Shown: positions 1 through 9,237 of the stretch, piece after piece
Layout of the letters: every line of letters starts with the position of its first letter
How positions within the stretch are numbered: position 1 is the first letter of the stretch
Assembly: GCF_000420385.1 (NCBI RefSeq)
Contig: NZ_ATUV01000001.1
Span: 124,001-188,000, forward strand
Direction of reading: 5' to 3'
DNA length: 64,000 bases
Source of the DNA: Hippea alviniae EP5-r
GTDB taxonomy: Bacteria; Campylobacterota_A; Desulfurellia; Desulfurellales; Hippeaceae
The notes under the pieces: generated by a model
Databases searched by the model: none
What the model saw: only the letters and a program-made list of their open reading frames with translations
Told to the model about the DNA's origin: nothing
Position numbers and translations under genes: made by a program

Positions 1-1058
1 ACACCTGAGCTGTGTTGTTTGCCCAGAGCTATTGCCCCTATACCGAGGCCATAGGTTACTTCGTTGTTTATTGACATGGCTATGAGTTTATCCATGAATA
101 TTTTGGATGCTAAGCCATTTGCTCTTGCCATCAGTACGGATGCGCCTATCATGACGTCTCCCTGTCCGGCCACGCATGCACCTATGCAGGCTCTGTATGT
201 TGAAGTGAAATATGTTATTATGTCGCGTGTGTATTTGTATTCTCCGCACATAAATACGCGTTCGTTGGGCACAAATACATCGTCAAAAATCAGATATGCC
301 TGAGTTATGCCGGTTTTTGGCATATCAAAGTTGTCTTTGAGTTCTCTTAAGTCGCTGGGTCTTGTTGTTTCGATAATGGTCAGTCCTTCTATGTCTCTCG
401 GCACAACACATGCTACAGCGAAATCTTTGTCGCTTTCACCGTAAACTCCGCCTGGGAGTATGAATATTTCATTTGCTGCAGCTACGCCGCATATCATTAC
501 TTTTGCACCGCGAATTACTATGCCATCTTCCCTTTTTTCTACGACTCTGATGTTTGTATCTAAATCTTCTTGTTGGGATGGTTTTTTGCTTCTATCTCCT
601 TTTGCATCTGTTAATGCACCGGATACGGCCAAACTGTTTTCTTGGGCGTATAAAATCCATTTTTTCAGTCTCTCGTGGTAATCTGTGCCAAATTCTTTAT
701 CTATATCTTGTGTTACGGCATACATAACATTCTGACAGTTCCATCCTACGCATACAGCTCCCGTGCATGTTCCTGTTAGTCTGTAGCATGTTCTTTTCAT
801 TCTTGAATTGGCTATAACATCTTCTTCGCTCATCATAAGGGAGTTAAATCTAAAAATTTTCTCTCCGGTTAGCTTTGATGTTGTGGTAAATATTTCTTCG
901 TATTCCGGATCGTATCCTGCAGCAAAACATCTGCTATGACTCTCTACGGTTCTTTTTGTGGCCGGGTCTGTAGTAACATCTTCAATAAGTTTTCCAAATT
1001 TGTAAATGTTTGGCCTCATTTTCCTCAAAGACTCTTTGTACTCCTCAGCAGTTTTCAT
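1..1058 (-). CDS. 4-hydroxybutyryl-CoA dehydratase / HpaB-fold protein (3' end outside window)
   Basis: About 352 residues are visible; the C-terminus runs off the left edge (family about 490). The start is the ATG at 1058, behind GGAGG. The N-terminus (MKTAEEYKESLRK), the DPKGDR-like segment (DAKGDR near 151-156) and VEKREDGIVIRGAK (about 173-186) match the flavin-dependent 4-hydroxybutyryl-CoA dehydratase (AbfD)/4-hydroxyphenylacetate 3-hydroxylase superfamily. By my alignment from memory to clostridial AbfD, two [4Fe-4S] ligands are kept (C103, C295). The ligand Cys99 position is Thr99, with a Cys one residue earlier (C98), and the ligand His position is Tyr288. It may therefore lack the normal cluster and do another reaction. 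It is the last visible gene of the CoA operon, 19 nt after the CoA-transferase beta gene. The superfamily call is firm; the substrate is unknown. Confidence 0.85.
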   Translation of the reverse strand, partial: MKTAEEYKESLRKMRPNIYKFGKLIEDVTTDPATKRTVESHSRCFAAGYDPEYEEIFTTTSKLTGEKIFRFNSLMMSEEDVIANSRMKRTCYRLTGTCTGAVCVGWNCQNVMYAVTQDIDKEFGTDYHERLKKWILYAQENSLAVSGALTDAKGDRSKKPSQQEDLDTNIRVVEKREDGIVIRGAKVMICGVAAANEIFILPGGVYGESDKDFAVACVVPRDIEGLTIIETTRPSDLRELKDNFDMPKTGITQAYLIFDDVFVPNERVFMCGEYKYTRDIITYFTSTYRACIGACVAGQGDVMIGASVLMARANGLASKIFMDKLIAMSINNEVTYGLGIGAIALGKQHSSG

Positions 1059-1077: not shown

Positions 1078-1854
1078 TTATTCTGCACTTCTTGAAATTA
1101 CTACCCTGAACGGGTCAACTTCTTCTCTTAAAATTTTTAGCTCTTCCTCTGTCGGCGGTTCGGTTTTTCCTATCGGTTCTTCTATTATCAGCTCAAAGCC
1201 AGTGTTTTTGATAACATCGTCTACGGTTACTCCAGGGTGTACCGACTCAAGTTTCATTCTTTTTGTTTTCTCATCAAACCCCATAACAGCCAGATTGGTT
1301 ATGACTTTGTAAGGACCTGTATTTGCCGGGAGCCCTGCTTCTTCTCTTGCGCCTGGTCCCGTTAGATAACCAGGAGTGGTAATGTAATCTATATCGTTTG
1401 TAAATCTGCGTGCTGAGTGTGGTGCTAAAATTACGCTTCTCCATGCAAAAGATGCAAAATCGTTTGCTCCACCACTTCCCGGGAATCTTACTTTCGGTTT
1501 ATCGTGGTTTCCTATAACTGTTGAGTTTATGTTGCCATACATGTCTATTTGAGCTCCGCCTAAAAATGCATAATCTACAAGGCCACGTTGGTTCATTTCC
1601 ATTATTTTCGGCATGCTTACCGTTTGAATGGCTTTGTATACGGTGTTTGAGTCTCCTATGGATATTGGCATAGATGGCAGAAGAGGTGCGACACCGCCCA
1701 CTTCGAACATTATTAGCAGGTTGGGAGCGTATAGTTTTTGGGCTAAGGCCGCTGCGGCGCATGGCACACCGGTTCCTACTGATACGCTCGCTCCGTCTTC
1801 AAACATTCTTGCGGCTACACATATCATTAACTCCATTGCATTGTATTCGGACAT
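1078..1854 (-). CDS. CoA-transferase family I, beta subunit (glutaconate CoA-transferase B-like)
   Basis: This 258-residue protein has the class I CoA-transferase beta-subunit fold, closest in style to GctB/CatJ. The VSVGTGVPCAAA segment (about 24-36) and FEVGG (50-54) match the family. Glu51 sits where the catalytic glutamate that forms the glutamyl-CoA thioester is expected, so transferase activity is plausible. This differs from IpdB-type ring-opening homologues, which lack that Glu. It lies 19 nt downstream of the alpha-subunit gene and 19 nt upstream of the dehydratase-fold gene, so the two subunits should be made together and load or unload CoA for this pathway. The acid substrate cannot be read from the sequence. 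Confidence 0.85.
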   Translation of the reverse strand: MSEYNAMELMICVAARMFEDGASVSVGTGVPCAAAALAQKLYAPNLLIMFEVGGVAPLLPSMPISIGDSNTVYKAIQTVSMPKIMEMNQRGLVDYAFLGGAQIDMYGNINSTVIGNHDKPKVRFPGSGGANDFASFAWRSVILAPHSARRFTNDIDYITTPGYLTGPGAREEAGLPANTGPYKVITNLAVMGFDEKTKRMKLESVHPGVTVDDVIKNTGFELIIEEPIGKTEPPTEEELKILREEVDPFRVVISRSAE

Positions 1855-1873: not shown

Positions 1874-2863
1874 TTATTCTGCATCAATATGAAGAACCTT
1901 TTGTCTTAGTTTTCTCATCTTTTCCAGACCGCCCGTAAGCTGTAGGAAATCTTCGAAATTCTCACAATCAAGGATATATTTTTTTATAAATTTCTCGTAA
2001 GTATCTTCGTTTTGGGCTGCCTTGAGCATATTTTTTAGGAAATCTACGTCCATGTGATACTCATAAGGCATGCCTCCGGGGTGTGCACCGTATGGCACTT
2101 CAACAACCGCATCGACCAGATAGAACGGTATTGTAGTTCTCAGCGGATCATCTCTGAAAAACTCGGTAGGCACCAGTCTTTCTGTTGTTACTATTACGGT
2201 TTTTGAGGCTTCTGCCAGTTCAACGTCGACAAGGGTTGTGCCCTTTATAAAACTGTTTCCGTATTTGTCTGCTGCGTGGACATGTATAAAAACTATGTCA
2301 GGATATACTGCCGGTATGGCAGCATAAGTTTTTCCTGTAAAAGGGCATTTTATCTCTTTTGCGGCACTGTATTTAAAGGTATCTGTTCCTAATATTGACC
2401 TTGCGGGTATAAACGATAAGCCCATGGCTGCCGCTTTGACTCTCCATGCAAGTGTTCCGTTTGACCATTCCGTGACTTTGACTTTTCCTGTTTCGAAACA
2501 TCTTCGGGCCATTTTTGAAATACCTAAGGCTTCCAGAGCCATCCCATAGGATATGTCGCACTCTTCAAAGCACCCGCTCATGAAGGCAAGTACCGACGGT
2601 AAAGGTGAACCTCCTATTGCCCCGTATTTGAGATGTTTTAAATCGTTTTTTCTTACCTGTCTTATCAATTCCATCAGAGCTGCTACCGGAGTTCTTTCGA
2701 TGGCGGAATTTCCCGCTGCTATATAATCGCCGTCTTTTAGGTATTTTGATACGGCATCTTTTAGAGTAGTTGTCTTGTTGACCATCTTTTTTGTTCTTTT
2801 TTTGAAGATTGCTCTCATCTCATCCGGGTCATAAAACCCGTAAAGTTTGCCTACACTTTCCAT
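1874..2863 (-). CDS. CoA-transferase family I, alpha subunit (glutaconate CoA-transferase A-like)
   Basis: A 329-residue alpha subunit that pairs with the next gene to make a two-subunit class I CoA-transferase. Family signs are the KDGDYIAAGNSA segment (about 43-54) and the DIVFIHVHAADKYGN motif (about 190-204), as in GctA/CatI/IpdA proteins. The ATG at 2863 follows a GGGGGG ribosome-binding site and lies 2 nt after the DUF35 gene, so translation is likely coupled. The family includes glutaconate and 3-oxoadipate transferases and the IpdAB ring-cleaving hydrolase of steroid degradation. Length is typical. The exact acid is not predictable. Confidence 0.85.
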   Translation of the reverse strand: MESVGKLYGFYDPDEMRAIFKKRTKKMVNKTTTLKDAVSKYLKDGDYIAAGNSAIERTPVAALMELIRQVRKNDLKHLKYGAIGGSPLPSVLAFMSGCFEECDISYGMALEALGISKMARRCFETGKVKVTEWSNGTLAWRVKAAAMGLSFIPARSILGTDTFKYSAAKEIKCPFTGKTYAAIPAVYPDIVFIHVHAADKYGNSFIKGTTLVDVELAEASKTVIVTTERLVPTEFFRDDPLRTTIPFYLVDAVVEVPYGAHPGGMPYEYHMDVDFLKNMLKAAQNEDTYEKFIKKYILDCENFEDFLQLTGGLEKMRKLRQKVLHIDAE

Positions 2864-2865
2864 TT

Positions 2866-3267
2866 TTACCCCCCTGATATAGGTTCAAATTTTGGAATGT
2901 TAAAATCGCCTGAAGGCTCCCATATTACCTGAACTTGCATACCGCATTCTATGAGTGACGGTTCGCAATTTACTATGTTGCTCAAAAAGTGGATGCCCTC
3001 ATCTAACTCTACTATTCCGACCACGTATGGAATTTTGTCTTTGAAGTATTCGTCGAAAGCTACCCTGTATACGGCAAAGCTGTATATCCTGCCTTTTCCT
3101 TTTGAGACTATGGTTTCAAATTCGGTTGAATGGCATTTAGGGCATGCTATCGATGGTGGCCATAAAACAGTGCCGCAGGTTTTACATTTTTTGAATCTTA
3201 ACTCTTTGTTTTTCGTGCCTTCCCAGAAGAATTTCGTATCGCTGTTCGGCATTGGATAGAAACTCAT
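2866..3267 (-). CDS. DUF35 Zn-ribbon/OB-fold acyl-CoA-associated protein
   Basis: A 133-residue protein with a rubredoxin-like zinc ribbon (CKTCG and CPKCH, four cysteines in the N-terminal half) followed by an OB-fold that normally contacts acyl-CoA. DUF35 proteins are partners of thiolase-fold enzymes: archaeal thiolase/HMG-CoA synthase complexes and the bacterial Ltp2-ChsH2 steroid aldolase. It directly abuts the end of the thiolase-like gene (no bases between), which strongly suggests the two form one complex. It is probably not an enzyme alone but a scaffold or CoA-binding part. Confidence 0.88.
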   Translation of the reverse strand: MSFYPMPNSDTKFFWEGTKNKELRFKKCKTCGTVLWPPSIACPKCHSTEFETIVSKGKGRIYSFAVYRVAFDEYFKDKIPYVVGIVELDEGIHFLSNIVNCEPSLIECGMQVQVIWEPSGDFNIPKFEPISGG

Positions 3268-4458
3268 CTAAAGCCTCCTGAGGATTATGGTTGCGTGGGT
3301 TTGCAAAACACCGCCGTTGTCACTGCATAATATGATTTCCGGCTTTTTTGTGCTTTCTACTTTACCAAGCTGTCTTTCGCCGCATCTTCCCATCAGTTGC
3401 ATTACACCTTCTGTTATGGGTGTTAGTCCCATGAAATATGCCTCGGAGAGTAATCCCCCTGATGTGTTTACGGGTAGTTTTCCTCCGGGTGCTGTGTAGC
3501 CGTTTTTGAAAAAGTCTTTTCCTTCTCCGGGTTTGAAGAATCCATACTCTTGCATGGTTATTTCTACTGTGTATGTGAAACAGTCGTATATTTCGCATGC
3601 GTCTACTTCGTTTATTGTTATGTCAGCCATTTCGAATGCCATTTGAGATGCTTTTTTTGCCCCTGTCGGTCCTGCCATGTATGTGGATTGGTGTATGTCT
3701 ATGCTCGGGTTTGCTTCACCTATTCCCATTATCGTAACAACTGTATGTGGCAGGTCCTTTGCTCTTTCTGTTGATGTGACTATGCAGGCTCTTCCTCCGT
3801 CGCTTATTAAGGCTGCATCGTATTTTCTGAAGGGTTCTATAAGGTAATCTGCTGTCAGGTAGTCTTTTTCTGTGAGTTTTTTCTCATGCATTGTAGCTAT
3901 AGGGTTTAGATTTGCCCATTTTCGCTGGTTTATGGCTATCTCTTTCCATGTTTCTGGTCCTGTTTCGAATTCACACATAGCCTTTCTTGCTGCGAGAGCG
4001 TAATCGCCTACAAAGCCGAATTCTCCAAACATGTGCGTTTCTTCTTTTGGTATTGGATGTGTGGCCTCCTCGATAAACATTCTTTTTGTCGAGAGGGCAT
4101 TATCTGCATAAATTATCAACACGTTCTGGCAGAAACCCGCTTCCAGAAGGGATATAGCCTGAATAAATTGATTTCTCGGGCAGTAAGATTCCTGACTCAA
4201 TACCGTGGGTTCGATTCCAAGCAGTTGGGCTATAAGATACGGTGTCGGCTCTGGTTCGTTTTTTGGTGGGTTGAATTGTCTGTAGCATATTAAGCAATCT
4301 ATATCCTCTTTTTTAAGACCGGCGTCTTTTATCGCATTGATTCCGGCTTCTACATAAAAACTTACCGCTGTTCTACCTGGAATTTTTCCTTGAGGTGTGT
4401 ATCCGACTCCGACTATTGCGTATTTGTCTTTTAATTTTCTTAGATGTTTGTAGTTCAT
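3268..4458 (-). CDS. Thiolase-superfamily protein, SCP-x/lipid-transfer (possible Ltp2-type aldolase)
   Basis: A 396-residue thiolase-fold protein of the SCP-x/lipid-transfer branch and the first gene of the operon. In the region of the thiolase nucleophile (about 86-103) the spacing to the QAI motif puts Arg95 where the Cys should be; a Cys is found two residues earlier (C93). Later motifs are EIYDCF (289-294) instead of the usual HDCF, and SGGLLSEAY (333-341). These look more like the Cys-independent retro-aldolases (Ltp2) than condensing thiolases. The adjacent DUF35 gene supports this, since Ltp2 works with a DUF35 partner. The start is an ATG behind GGAGG. Fold is firm; aldolase versus thiolase is inference. 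Confidence 0.8.
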   Translation of the reverse strand: MNYKHLRKLKDKYAIVGVGYTPQGKIPGRTAVSFYVEAGINAIKDAGLKKEDIDCLICYRQFNPPKNEPEPTPYLIAQLLGIEPTVLSQESYCPRNQFIQAISLLEAGFCQNVLIIYADNALSTKRMFIEEATHPIPKEETHMFGEFGFVGDYALAARKAMCEFETGPETWKEIAINQRKWANLNPIATMHEKKLTEKDYLTADYLIEPFRKYDAALISDGGRACIVTSTERAKDLPHTVVTIMGIGEANPSIDIHQSTYMAGPTGAKKASQMAFEMADITINEVDACEIYDCFTYTVEITMQEYGFFKPGEGKDFFKNGYTAPGGKLPVNTSGGLLSEAYFMGLTPITEGVMQLMGRCGERQLGKVESTKKPEIILCSDNGGVLQTHATIILRRL

Positions 4459-4541
4459 TTTCCCTCCTTTTACTTTGAATTGTAAGGGACTAATTGTTTT
4501 CTAAGTTTCCTAAATTTATTAAATATTCGTTTATTTATTGA

Positions 4542-4555
4542 GCAAATATGATTCC
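4542..4555 (-). promoter_or_regulatory. Sigma-54 (-24/-12) promoter of the thiolase/CoA-transferase operon
   Basis: On the minus strand GG (4555-4554) is followed by exactly 10 nt and then GC (4543-4542), inside TAGGAATCATATTTGCTC, close to the RpoN consensus. Predicted transcription start is near 4530, leaving a leader of about 70 nt. A sigma-54 activator gene lies immediately upstream, which fits. Confidence 0.65.
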
Positions 4556-4700
4556 TAAACTTGAATATAACTTTAAATACTTGTTATGAGTGGAATTTAT
4601 TAAAAATGTATTAAATAGGTTTTTTGAGGTTTTTATCGTTTATGATAGTTAATATAGGTTAGATGGGTGTTTTTTTGCTGTTTGTTTAGGGATGTTTCGT

Positions 4701-4737
4701 GTTTCAAAATTGAATCTTTAAATCTCACTTTTGAAAC
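4701..4737. repeat. 9-bp inverted repeat at the 3' end of the sigma-54 activator gene
   Basis: GTTTCAAAA (4701-4709) and TTTTGAAAC (4729-4737) are perfect inverted arms 19 nt apart. They overlap the last codons and stop of the regulator, about 150-180 bp upstream of the sigma-54 promoter. The position suits an upstream activator sequence. It is AT-rich and no T-run follows on the minus strand, so it does not look like a terminator. Confidence 0.35.
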
Positions 4738-6098
4738 TTTATTTTGAACTTTTTTGCTTTTCTTGCAGCTGTTGATTTTGAAATATTGAGTTTTTTCGCA
4801 AATTCTTGAATATTTTTGCAATTTAATGCTGTCTCTTTTAGAATTTTTTCTTCGCACTCATGGAGCATTATTTTTAAATCTTTTTGACACTTGTCCTTTT
4901 TATAGTCTAATTGTATGTTTAGTTGTTTTGTTTTAAGAAGAGAGTAGTAATCATTTCTCGTTATAGTGTTGCTCTTGGTCAAAATCATTAGGCGTTCTAT
5001 ATAGTTTTCTAATTCTCTTACATTTCCTTTCCATTGGAGATTTTGAAACAGTTTTATTAAGTCTTTCGATATCCGTTTATTTAATCCGTATTTTTTATTT
5101 AATCTGTCGGTTATGTATTTTGTTAAGGGTTCTATATCCTCTTTTCTTTCTCTTAAAGGTGGTATGTGTATTGGTATTACATTTAGTCTGTAGTATAAAT
5201 CTTCTCTAAAGAGATTCTTTTTAATCATTTCTTCTAAATTTTTGTTGGTAGCTGCTATTATTCTTACATTTACCTTTGTTGGTTTTACTGACCCTAACTT
5301 TGTAAATTCTTTATCTTGTAGAACTTGTAAAAGTTTTGTTTGTACATCCAAAGGTATTTCTCCTATCTCATCCAGAAATATTGTGCTATTGTTGGCTTCC
5401 TCAAAAATGCCTTTTTTACCTTTTGGATTTGAACCTGTAAAGGCTCCGCCTTTGTATCCGAACAGTTCGGATTCTATGAGATTATTAGGTATAGCGGCAC
5501 AATTTACCTTAATGAAAGGTCTATTTTTTCTTTTACTTAAACTATGAATTAATCGTGCTAAAATCTCTTTTCCGACTCCAGATTCTCCTGTTATTAAAAC
5601 GGTAGAGTCTATTTTTGATATTCTAATTGCCAATTCTACTATTTCCATCATCTTTGGGCTATGTGCTATTATACCTGGAGAACTCCTTTCCTTGAAGTTG
5701 TGGTCGGTTTCGAAGTAGGCTATATATTTGTCGAATTCAGATATATCGTATACTGTATTTACTACAAAAGTCATATTTCCTTTTTTATCAAAGACAGGTT
5801 TCCCATGAGACAGGAGTGTTCTATTAGTTCTTGTTGTGAATGTTGTTACTGCTGGTTTTCTTGTCTTTAAAACCAGCAAAGTTGCGGATGCGCTGAAGTA
5901 ATTGTTTTCTACTAACTCTTTCATATTTTTTCCTAAGAGCTTTTCTCTCGGTAATTGTGACATTTCTTCGTAAACTTTATTGATATAAATTGTGTATCCA
6001 TCGCTATCTGTTACGTATACCCCTACATATAAGTTGTCAGTTATTATGTCTGCTAATTCTACAGGAAAACTTAAACATTGTTTAGATACTTTATCCAT
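4725..6098 (-). CDS. PAS-domain sigma-54-dependent transcriptional activator
   Basis: A 457-residue bacterial enhancer-binding protein. Residues about 15-125 form a PAS sensor, so the input is probably a small molecule or redox state rather than phosphorylation. The AAA+ domain follows: Walker A GESGVGKE (171-178), the sigma-54 contact loop GAFTGS (218-223; last Ala of GAFTGA replaced by Ser), and Walker B IFLDEIGE (240-247). A C-terminal helix-turn-helix spans about 420-455. It reads toward the thiolase/CoA-transferase operon, which carries a -24/-12 promoter, so it is very likely that operon's activator. Its own promoter has a consensus-like -35/-10 with an inverted repeat over the -10, suggesting autoregulation. 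Confidence 0.93.
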   Translation of the reverse strand: MDKVSKQCLSFPVELADIITDNLYVGVYVTDSDGYTIYINKVYEEMSQLPREKLLGKNMKELVENNYFSASATLLVLKTRKPAVTTFTTRTNRTLLSHGKPVFDKKGNMTFVVNTVYDISEFDKYIAYFETDHNFKERSSPGIIAHSPKMMEIVELAIRISKIDSTVLITGESGVGKEILARLIHSLSKRKNRPFIKVNCAAIPNNLIESELFGYKGGAFTGSNPKGKKGIFEEANNSTIFLDEIGEIPLDVQTKLLQVLQDKEFTKLGSVKPTKVNVRIIAATNKNLEEMIKKNLFREDLYYRLNVIPIHIPPLRERKEDIEPLTKYITDRLNKKYGLNKRISKDLIKLFQNLQWKGNVRELENYIERLMILTKSNTITRNDYYSLLKTKQLNIQLDYKKDKCQKDLKIMLHECEEKILKETALNCKNIQEFAKKLNISKSTAARKAKKFKIKFQK

Positions 6099-6197: not shown

Positions 6198-7166
6198 TCA
6201 AGAGTACCTTATCCTTGGGTCAACCAAGGCATAGGTTAAGTCTGCTATTAGGTTGCCAAGGAGAGTAAGTATGCTGCTTATGGCTAAGATGCCCATTACG
6301 GTTGGGTAGTCTCGTGCCATTGCTGAGAAGTAAAAAAGCTGACCCATACCTGGAATAGCGAATATTGACTCTATTATTACACTTCCACCAATGAGAGATG
6401 GTATTGATAATCCCATTATTGTTATAAGTGGTAAAAGGGCGTTTTTTAGTGCGTGTTTGTATAGTATTTTTCTTGTTGGTATCTTTCTTAAAAATAGAAG
6501 TTTTATGAAATCTTTATCCAACACATCTATCATGCCACTTCTTACATACCTTGCAAAGCCAGCCAATGAGCCAAACACTCCTATGAAAATAGGGATAACA
6601 AGGTGTTTTGCTTCGTCTAAGTAATAGGCAAATGTGCCTGCTTTTGCATTGAACGAGTGTAAACCGCTCAAAGGTAGAATGTGCCAATGAACGCTTAAAA
6701 GCAGCATTAAAAGTAAAGCAAGCCAGAACGACGGCATAGCATACCCACTAAAAACAAAAAAAGTAAAAAATTTATCTATGAGAGAGTCTTTTTTTACGGC
6801 TGATACGACGCCTATTGGTATAGATATGATTAATGATAGTATAAGTGTTATGACATTGATTAATAAGGTTATGGGTAATCTTTGTGCAATTTTTTCTGCA
6901 ACGCTTTGACCATCAACAAGGCTGTATCCTAAGTTTAAGCTTAAGAAGGATTTAAGCCAATCCCAATATTGGACATAAATCGGCTCATTTAGGTGATAAA
7001 TCTTTTCCATATTTTTTAAGGATTCTGCCGATACATTTGGATTAAAACCACCCGCTGCATTTATTGGATTACCCGGTGCAAGATGAATTATAATAAAGAT
7101 AATAAATGTTATACCTATGAAAGTTGGAATGAGCTCAAATAGCTTCTTGACCAAAAAGTTCAGCAT
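6198..7166 (-). CDS. DppB-like ABC transporter permease, orphan
   Basis: A 322-residue inner-membrane permease of the dipeptide/oligopeptide/nickel importer family, with about six hydrophobic segments. The HLAPGNP motif near 29-35, the IPIGVVSAV helix and the HALKNALLP segment are typical of DppB/OppB. Its start overlaps the end of the HD-GYP gene by 32 nt. No DppC, ATPase or binding protein is adjacent; the next gene is a transcriptional activator with its own promoter. In the EAA loop the usual A-K-G-L is replaced by L-R-K-I, removing the normally invariant glycine that contacts the ATPase. It may use distant partners or be decaying. Confidence 0.85.
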   Translation of the reverse strand: MLNFLVKKLFELIPTFIGITFIIFIIIHLAPGNPINAAGGFNPNVSAESLKNMEKIYHLNEPIYVQYWDWLKSFLSLNLGYSLVDGQSVAEKIAQRLPITLLINVITLILSLIISIPIGVVSAVKKDSLIDKFFTFFVFSGYAMPSFWLALLLMLLLSVHWHILPLSGLHSFNAKAGTFAYYLDEAKHLVIPIFIGVFGSLAGFARYVRSGMIDVLDKDFIKLLFLRKIPTRKILYKHALKNALLPLITIMGLSIPSLIGGSVIIESIFAIPGMGQLFYFSAMARDYPTVMGILAISSILTLLGNLIADLTYALVDPRIRYS

Positions 7167-9237
7167 ACTTTTTATAGGCGTTTTTCTTTTTTTTCAAGGA
7201 ACATATATACATTAACTCTTCTGCTGATTTTCCTTCTTGTGGGAAACGAGCAAAGGTTATATGACAACCAATTATTTTTTTAGCTTCATCTTTACTTATT
7301 ATGCAGCTTTTGCTCTCTATCTTTTTTATTATGCCCTGTTTTAATTCCCACTCCATTAAGCTTTGGAATGCTTCAGCGTTTTCGCTTAAGTATATGAACA
7401 TGAATGAATCGGCGCCAACTCTTGAAAGCGCTTCTTTTTTTGCAATTTTTTTTAGTTCTTCTGCAACAAACATAATTATTTTATCACCAACTTCCCTACC
7501 GTATTTGTAGTTTAAATAAGAAGTGTTTTTTATGTCAACCATAAAAAGAGTGAAAGGCTTTTTATCTTTTATTAGCTTGTCTATTTTATGAATGAGAAAC
7601 GACCGTCTTTTTAATCCTGTCATGAAATCAAAGTCTATTATGTCCCTTCTGAGTTTCTCTATGTCTTCCGGTAGATATGTTTTGTTTATTCTTGTCTCTT
7701 TTAAAAAGCCTTCTATTAATTCATTTTCCACTTTTTTCAATATGTTTTGGTCTATTTTTTCTTCTTTGAGTATTTTTATTGCTTCTTCTGGCGATAAACC
7801 TTTCCTATAAGGTCTGTCTGTTGTTAAAGCATCAAATATATCGGCTATTGCAAGAATTCTTGCTCCAAGCTCAATCTGGTCGCCTTTTAACCCATCTGGA
7901 TAACCACTCCCATCCATCTTTTCGTGGTGATGTCTGATGCATGTTGCTATTGACCTGAATTTTGGGACATTTTTTATAATTTCGTATGATATTATTGGGT
8001 GATATTTTATTATTTCGTATTCGAATGGTGTTAAATCTGTTGGTTTGAGCAGAATCATATCAGGTATACCTATTTTACCTATGTCGTGCAAGAGACCAGC
8101 ATTGTATATCATCTCTTGTTGGTGAATGTCGAGTCCTAACTTTTTTGCTATTATTTTGGAATATACAGCGACATGTTCTGAGTGTCCCTTTGTATAGACA
8201 TCTTTTGCTTCCGTTGCAGAGACGAATGCTTCTATCAAACCTTCTTCTGTTTCTGAAAGCTTACTTGAGACGATTTTTATATTTTTGTAAGTGTGCACTA
8301 TGGATATAAAATGCGTTAGGGCTATTTGAAGATTTGATAGTTCTCTTTTAAATTCATTTGACGGTTCTTTGTCAAAGGAGAAACAGAATATAGCAACGGC
8401 TCTGTCGAATGAAACTATTGGTATAAATACAGCAAACGGCGACTTTGAATGTGGTATGCACGCTTCTGAAATTTCCGTGGCATTATTTTTCCATAGGTTA
8501 TATATGGGTGAGTTTTTGCTATCATTTATTGTTCCAAAAACTGTGCTGTCGTTTACTTGGATGTATAAATCTTCTGACGCAAAAAGGAGAGAAGCCGTAT
8601 TTGCATTTACCATTACTTTTATTTTTTTTAAAGCTTCGGCAATGAAATTTGCAGAGAGTTTGTATTTTAGTTGATGGTCTAATAGACTTAAAAATTCTAA
8701 CTGTCTTTTATTTTTCTCTTTCTCTTTTTCTATTTCTTCTATGTATCTCTGCTTCTCAAGTTCCGATGCTATGGAATCTGCTATCTTTTTCAAAACCTCA
8801 ACTTTCTCAGACGAAAACTTTTTGTGTTTTGTTAAGCTTATAAGGTGCAATGAACCATATATAGTGCTTTTTGTTTGAATAGCAACTGCAAGAAGAGATT
8901 TTAAACCCACTTTTATCCATGGTTTTAAAGAGTATTTGTATTTTTGATAATTATATATTTTAATAAATCCATCCTTTTTTAATTTTTCGTGAAAGTGTCT
9001 CCTTTTTTTTAGCGGAACTTCATATAACTCAGGAAATTTCTCTTTTGGGAAGTTATCTCTCATAAAAAAAGACGAATGTTTGAATCGTATTACATCATCT
9101 TCCCATAGACCTATAAATGCGCCATCGACGCCGAATAGCTCAGCTACACCATCAAGTATAGACTTCCAGTTATCGCTCAGGTATTCTCTGTTTGTTATCT
9201 TGTTTGATAAGTCGAATGCTTTAATGAGTAAATCCAT
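7135..9237 (-). CDS. GAF / HD-GYP / degenerate GGDEF signalling protein
   Basis: A 700-residue cytoplasmic protein. Two GAF-like sensor regions (about 20-160 and 190-320) are followed by a complete-looking HD-GYP phosphodiesterase domain (about 335-500) with HDIGK (near 384), HHHEKMDGSGYPDGL and later DIFDALTTDRPYRKG. The C-terminal GGDEF-fold (about 555-690) has RVGADSF where GGDEF is expected, so diguanylate cyclase activity is unlikely. The protein therefore probably hydrolyses c-di-GMP, possibly with the dead GGDEF as a GTP or ligand sensor. It is divergent from the flagellar operon, so control of motility is a reasonable guess. Confidence 0.92.
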   Translation of the reverse strand: MDLLIKAFDLSNKITNREYLSDNWKSILDGVAELFGVDGAFIGLWEDDVIRFKHSSFFMRDNFPKEKFPELYEVPLKKRRHFHEKLKKDGFIKIYNYQKYKYSLKPWIKVGLKSLLAVAIQTKSTIYGSLHLISLTKHKKFSSEKVEVLKKIADSIASELEKQRYIEEIEKEKEKNKRQLEFLSLLDHQLKYKLSANFIAEALKKIKVMVNANTASLLFASEDLYIQVNDSTVFGTINDSKNSPIYNLWKNNATEISEACIPHSKSPFAVFIPIVSFDRAVAIFCFSFDKEPSNEFKRELSNLQIALTHFISIVHTYKNIKIVSSKLSETEEGLIEAFVSATEAKDVYTKGHSEHVAVYSKIIAKKLGLDIHQQEMIYNAGLLHDIGKIGIPDMILLKPTDLTPFEYEIIKYHPIISYEIIKNVPKFRSIATCIRHHHEKMDGSGYPDGLKGDQIELGARILAIADIFDALTTDRPYRKGLSPEEAIKILKEEKIDQNILKKVENELIEGFLKETRINKTYLPEDIEKLRRDIIDFDFMTGLKRRSFLIHKIDKLIKDKKPFTLFMVDIKNTSYLNYKYGREVGDKIIMFVAEELKKIAKKEALSRVGADSFMFIYLSENAEAFQSLMEWELKQGIIKKIESKSCIISKDEAKKIIGCHITFARFPQEGKSAEELMYICSLKKKKNAYKKYAELFGQEAI

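Follow-up and report, generated by a model that had tools for sequence, protein, structure and literature searches.

A 4-hydroxybutyryl-CoA dehydratase-like subfamily with tyrosine at the position of the histidine cluster ligand

Introduction

4-Hydroxybutyryl-CoA dehydratase (4HBD; AbfD) is a classic example of radical chemistry that combines a flavin with an iron-sulfur cluster. A ketyl/enoxy-radical mechanism that uses FAD and the cluster has been proposed for this enzyme, and the histidine-ligated iron is central to it. The overall fold is shared by the HpaB-type 4-hydroxyphenylacetate 3-monooxygenases, which are aerobic two-component enzymes without cluster cysteines. Here we describe a 4HBD-like protein encoded at one end of a 64,000-nucleotide stretch of Hippea alviniae EP5-r DNA (the window); the name HBL is used below for this protein and for its subfamily. 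HBL apparently represents a widespread and undescribed branch, and a search of the open-access literature returned neither a paper on the subfamily nor biochemistry of any member.

The HBL gene and its fold

The window holds the following part of the gene:

1-1058, minus strand: 5' part of the HBL gene (352 codons), recognized by its open frame, homology, and Pfam matches

The start codon is ATG at 1058, with GTG at 1088 also possible, and the frame runs out of the left end of the window. In the genome stretch that supplied the remainder (L003, G000:C1:118000-134000), the complete gene (G000:C1:123607-125058, equal to L003:5605-7059 on the minus strand) encodes 484 amino acids from the ATG, and 132 of its codons lie to the left of the window. 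The protein matches the Pfam domains HpaB_N (271 bits) and HpaB C-terminal (131 bits). Its best solved relative in a phmmer search was AbfD (1u8v; 304 bits, E 1e-89), and the Nitrosopumilus 4HBD (6vjr) scored 295 bits. Homology to AbfD spans the full length of HBL in both sequence and fold; the structure model, which is that of a 67% identical Aquificota homologue and not of the window protein (mean pLDDT 91), aligned with 1u8v at a Foldseek TM of 0.94. The 4HBD fold assigned by a first-pass annotation of the window was borne out by these comparisons.

According to the closest NCBIfam and Pfam names, HBL would be an HpaB-type FADH2-dependent aromatic monooxygenase. The Pfam HpaB_N/HpaB and TIGR02309 matches speak for this assignment, to which we nevertheless give next to no credence: no NCBIfam equivalog passed its cut-off for HBL, the HpaB equivalog scored 134 bits where 480 are required, HpaB proteins scored at most 96 bits (Thermus HpaB) against 304 for 1u8v, and HBL has conserved the three cluster cysteines and has acyl-CoA gene neighbors.

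The HBL gene is under purifying selection and the protein is maintained. In comparison with the 84% identical orthologue of the related genome G017, pN was 0.10 and synonymous sites were saturated, and the acyl-CoA dehydrogenase and CoA-transferase B genes of the same operon showed a similar selection pattern. A degenerating pseudogene was rejected on the basis of the stop-free frame and this pN with saturated pS.

Cluster ligands and active-site residues

Residues were tallied in 34 HBL and 33 canonical 4HBD sequences, some of which are partial, and the denominators vary with position. The positions concerned are encoded in the window as follows:

765-767, minus strand: Cys98 codon; cluster ligand by homology, equivalent to AbfD Cys99 (Cys in 30/30 HBLs and 33/33 canonical 4HBDs)
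750-752, minus strand: Cys103 codon; cluster ligand by homology, equivalent to AbfD Cys103 (30/30 HBLs)
558-620, minus strand: motif GALTDAKGDRSKKPSQQEDLD, residues 147-167; presumed FAD-binding loop
489-491, minus strand: Cys190 codon, at the position of AbfD Thr190 (Cys in 25/32 and Ala in 7/32 of the clade)
300-302, minus strand: Gln253 codon, at the position of AbfD Glu257 (Gln in 33/34 HBLs)
195-197, minus strand: Tyr288 codon, aligned with the His292 ligand of AbfD (34/34 HBLs have Tyr)
183-185, minus strand: Ile292 codon, at the position of AbfD Tyr296 (Ile in 34/34 HBLs)
171-176, minus strand: Cys295 and Val296 codons, equivalent to AbfD Cys299 (cluster ligand) and Lys300 (both in 34/34 HBLs)

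The catalytic and ligand roles of these AbfD residues are what we take them to be from general knowledge of 4HBD together with the aligned 1u8v sequence. HBL and canonical 4HBDs separate completely by their residues at H292 (Tyr in every HBL against His in 33/33 canonical sequences), Y296, and K300 and almost completely at E257 and E455. At the Glu455 position, Gly was found in 32/33 HBLs with four residues lost nearby, and position 440 beside it is Cys in 29/33 HBLs and Thr in the window protein. The motif TDxKGDR..PSxQxDxD is present in HBL, and T150, D151, K153, G154, R156, Q163, and D167 occur in all or nearly all HBLs and canonical 4HBDs; from the HpaB/4HBD fold, residues 147-167 are presumably the FAD-binding loop.

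The alignments agree with the first-pass annotation in placing Cys103, Tyr288, and Cys295 at AbfD Cys103, His292, and Cys299, and Ile292 and Val296 at Tyr296 and Lys300. That annotation had also taken Thr99 as the equivalent of AbfD Cys99. Instead, the invariant Cys98 aligns there, because the loop between Cys98 and Cys103 is CX4C in HBL and CX3C in AbfD, with one inserted residue in both pairwise and multiple alignments; the assignment of Thr99 is thus an artifact of counting back from Cys103 without a gap. The ligand set is therefore incomplete relative to AbfD in one ligand, not two: Cys98 is a normal ligand, and the fourth ligand is Tyr or absent. The changes from Glu257 to Gln253 and from Glu455 to Gly, and the subfamily-common cysteines at C190 and position 440, are additions to the earlier list.

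The extra cysteines C91, C108, and C291 do cluster near these sites in the window protein, as had been pointed out, and C108 and C291 also occur in the 84% identical orthologue. They are rare in the clade, with Cys in 3/30, 3/30, and 9/34 sequences, respectively, and the 67% identical Aquificota homologue has Ala, Ser, and Ala at these positions while its other site residues are the same as those of the window protein. A differently ligated center built from these three residues with C98/C103, as formerly suggested, is accordingly extremely unlikely.

Because the residue pattern is common to 34/34 clade sequences and the gene is under purifying selection, neither drift nor a sequencing slip explains it. 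That the fourth ligand and the Y296/K300/E257/E455 set are gone would also be expected if the cluster were merely structural, of the [3Fe-4S] type, or absent, with HBL acting as an ordinary flavoenzyme on a 4HBD scaffold, and the relatives L019, L030, and L033, which are free of the cluster cysteines and keep the His and Lys, indicate that the fold tolerates cluster loss. We regard this as quite unlikely, since the invariance of C98, C103, and C295 in bacteria and archaea is unexpected for dispensable residues.

Phylogeny and distribution

When the genome collection was scanned with three queries, namely the window protein and the homologues from G017 and G045, 32 loci formed a group that shares 51-67% identity with the window protein; the remainder follow after a gap, at 44% or less. 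The HBL census is a lower bound, because just two peptide patterns were scanned. HBL was found in Bacillota, Aquificota, Thermodesulfobacteriota, Zixibacteria, Calditrichota, Spirochaetales, Thermoplasmata, Lokiarchaeota, and others, although individual taxon assignments may err because nearly all of the records are metagenome-assembled genomes (MAGs). A maximum-likelihood tree built from 83 sequences united the 30 full-length HBLs in one clade with support of 100/100; this clade lies beside the canonical 4HBDs, outside their clade, and its stem measures 1.3 changes per site. It is close to certain that HBL is a distinct, maintained subfamily. Among 25 genomes of the window organism's phylum, an intact HBL gene was present in the window genome and G017 only, with a broken copy in G018, and this patchiness suggests horizontal transfer and loss.

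The operon and its relatives

HBL belongs to an operon on the minus strand that comprises, in order, the genes for a sigma-54 activator, a thiolase, its OB-fold partner, CoA-transferase subunits A and B, HBL, and an acyl-CoA dehydrogenase:

4725-6098, minus strand: PAS/AAA+ sigma-54-dependent activator, upstream of the operon
3268-4458, minus strand: SCP2-type thiolase-like protein (profile matches)
2866-3267, minus strand: Zn-ribbon/OB-fold (ChsH2/BbsA-like) thiolase partner (profile matches)
1874-2863, minus strand: CoA-transferase subunit A; closest solved relative 1poi_A
1078-1854, minus strand: CoA-transferase subunit B; among solved structures nearest to the beta subunit of glutaconate CoA-transferase (1poi_B)
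L003:4447-5586, immediately outside the left end of the window, minus strand: acyl-CoA dehydrogenase beside HBL, operon member

The position of the catalytic Glu of GctB is kept in subunit B, where the Glu of LLIMFEVGG aligned with that of HIIVESG in 1poi_B. An IpdAB-type ring hydrolase was considered for the pair and rejected, as glutaconate CoA-transferase fits better (196 bits for the B subunit against 64/60). The activator is a probable regulator of the operon; no convincing -24/-12 promoter was found before the operon, and a weak GG-N10-GC site at 4541-4556 (minus strand) departs from the consensus at three positions and may be due to chance. The thiolase/OB protein/CoA-transferase A and B/HBL/acyl-CoA dehydrogenase operon is also kept in another family within the order of the window organism, and the gene order from thiolase to dehydrogenase is the same in G017.

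In G018, a broken form of the operon (L116:10047-11585, on G018:C18) carries a deletion that fuses the beginning of CoA-transferase A with the central part of HBL, followed by frameshifts, while the thiolase and acyl-CoA dehydrogenase genes are still intact. The same contig bears a parallel operon (L118:203-6939, in G018:C18:80000-99999) with a sigma-54 activator, a thiolase-like gene, and a 4HBD-type gene that keeps the His, and its CoA-transferase subunits share 52% and 75% identity with those of the window. Elsewhere in the window, positions 7135-9237 encode a protein of 700 amino acids that resembles a GAF-HD-GYP-GGDEF signaling protein by sequence and lies between permease-like and flagellar genes.

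These loci bear on whether HBL is a working 4-hydroxybutyryl-CoA dehydratase that tolerates its substitutions. The fold, FAD motif, three cysteines, and acyl-CoA context would all fit, as would the adjacency of the G018 CoA-transferase pair to another 4HBD-type gene. We consider such an activity very unlikely, because the catalytic residues are fixed as other residues, the same genome has a second 4HBD-type gene (L004) with His and Lys, and the stem of the clade is long.

Neighborhoods of HBL genes and the partner dehydrogenase

Bacterial and archaeal HBL genes often adjoin genes for acyl-CoA dehydrogenase, EtfB, EtfA, and an acyl-CoA ligase, which is PaaK-like in bacteria and MbcS-like in Thermoplasmata, and sometimes a transporter gene. 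No neighbor is universal across the HBL loci, and several members have no metabolic neighbor at all. In seven Thermoplasmata loci (L045-L048, L053, L054, and L061), the gene directly upstream of HBL encodes a DUF6125-type protein, the DUF6125 match having been shown for L046.

The usual catalytic Glu is missing in most bacterial loci where an acyl-CoA dehydrogenase neighbors HBL. In the HBL-adjoining dehydrogenases of the window genome, G017, G018, L035, L038-L043, and L049, SAG or SGG replaces the YEG of most such enzymes, and there is no Glu at the isovaleryl-CoA dehydrogenase position either; the HBL-linked dehydrogenases of Thermoplasmata retain the catalytic Glu. Motif deviations are known for isovaleryl-CoA dehydrogenase, which uses another base, and for a desulfinase, a carnitine-type dehydrogenase, and the decarboxylating benzylmalonyl-CoA dehydrogenase (PMC8360864, PMC11659651). 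The carnitine-type branch has SGG, and deviating motifs accompany unusual chemistry (PMC8360864). The motif deviation thus makes an unusual acyl-CoA reaction plausible at the HBL loci, though it names none.

One Spirochaetales MAG locus (L040:5354-16048) combines HBL with two CaiB-like CoA-transferases, BKACE, an ApbA-like reductase, a BCCT transporter, and two EtfBA pairs, a set that resembles a carnitine/betaine catabolic island. A carnitine or butyrobetaine role for HBL was considered and set aside, as L040 alone hints at it and other loci give no support.

Given how frequently EtfB/EtfA and acyl-CoA dehydrogenase adjoin HBL, HBL could itself be an ETF-linked acyl-CoA oxidoreductase or the electron-transfer partner of the dehydrogenase, with the three-Cys cluster as a relay. 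The loss of the dehydratase acid/base residues and the apparent retention of both redox centers are in keeping with this redox role. It is nonetheless rather unlikely in our judgment: the same loci already encode a dedicated acyl-CoA dehydrogenase, and the window operon contains no ETF genes. This role and a structural cluster are the chief competitors of the function proposed below.

Proposed function

We give roughly an even chance to HBL being an anaerobic acyl-CoA lyase or isomerase with FAD and a three-Cys [4Fe-4S] cluster whose fourth iron is ligated by Tyr or open; judging from its residues, HBL probably catalyzes a reaction different from that of 4HBD. HBL would have arisen from the 4HBD lineage by neofunctionalization, and homology suggests that it binds FAD and that its Cys98, Cys103, and Cys295 hold a [4Fe-4S] cluster. 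The phenolate of Tyr288 might coordinate the fourth iron, as the position of this residue suggests; alternatively, this iron might be open to the substrate or to hydroxide, an arrangement found in other site-differentiated clusters. By extrapolation from the 4HBD proposal, FAD and the cluster would act on a CoA thioester by one-electron (ketyl/enoxy-radical) chemistry, which might result in elimination or double-bond migration. The substrate is likely to be other than 4-hydroxybutyryl-CoA, because the pocket is rebuilt at Glu257, the Glu455 loop, Thr190, Tyr296, and Lys300. In the window operon, the GctAB-like CoA-transferase would activate an acid, HBL and the acyl-CoA dehydrogenase would convert the product, and the thiolase would cleave it; in other organisms, the set of HBL, dehydrogenase, and ETF with an acyl-CoA ligase could equally run reductively.

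The lyase/isomerase reading draws support from the monophyly of the clade (100/100), the residue dichotomy, the kept cysteines and FAD loop, the TM of 0.94, the selection pattern, and the linkage to acyl-CoA genes. The counterpoint is that the reaction type is borrowed from 4HBD, whose other catalytic residues are gone in HBL. A bolder version, in which a pan-prokaryotic subfamily carries out a radical acyl-CoA reaction with a three-Cys plus tyrosinate (or open, substrate-binding iron) cluster, coupled to an acyl-CoA dehydrogenase without the canonical base, is offered tentatively, as a possibility that we would not yet call probable.

HBL provides a natural test of which parts of the 4HBD mechanism are essential, because the scaffold is kept while Tyr stands for His and the Tyr/Lys/Glu set is replaced. 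It probably marks one step of anaerobic acid metabolism in many uncultured lineages. HBL genes are likely to be miscalled as 4HBD or HpaB and to serve as markers for 4-hydroxybutyrate pathways or carbon-fixation cycles, a use that their residues do not support.

Comparison with known systems

HBL resembles AbfD (1u8v) in its fold, with a TM of 0.94 for one clade member, and in homology over the full length, the positions of three Cys, the FAD-loop motif, and the acyl-CoA context. It differs in the replacement of His292 by Tyr, Tyr296 by Ile, Lys300 by Val, Glu257 by Gln, Glu455 by Gly, and Thr190 by Cys or Ala, and in its loops, with one residue more in the CX3C loop and four fewer near Glu455. 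The O2-tolerant 4HBD of Nitrosopumilus maritimus (6vjr) shares the fold (TM 0.93, 295 bits) and retains the His ligand and Lys, whereas HBL has neither.

The paralogue in the same genome (L004:8832-10271) has the 4HBD fold and cluster cysteines like HBL, but keeps the His and Lys positions; its set is Cys/Cys/His/Cys/Lys with Gly at the Tyr296 position, the same as in its relatives L012-L014 and L023. More generally, the paralogues in related genomes (L012-L016, L018, L023, L025, L028, L029, and L032) keep the cluster cysteines, His, and Lys. L019, L030, and L033 form another deviating branch of 4HBD-like proteins, with no cluster cysteines and with the His292 and Lys300 positions kept (HRFTAxSYK).

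HpaB-type 4-hydroxyphenylacetate 3-monooxygenase (2yyg/2yyj) shares the overall fold at a TM of about 0.83 and an identity of about 20%; the three cysteines that HBL keeps are absent from this type, as they are from the HpaB-like L020. Fold and descent make HBL a member of the 4HBD superfamily. Since it lacks the His ligand and the catalytic set of AbfD-type dehydratases and lies outside their clade, annotation as 4HBD is not appropriate, nor is annotation as HpaB.
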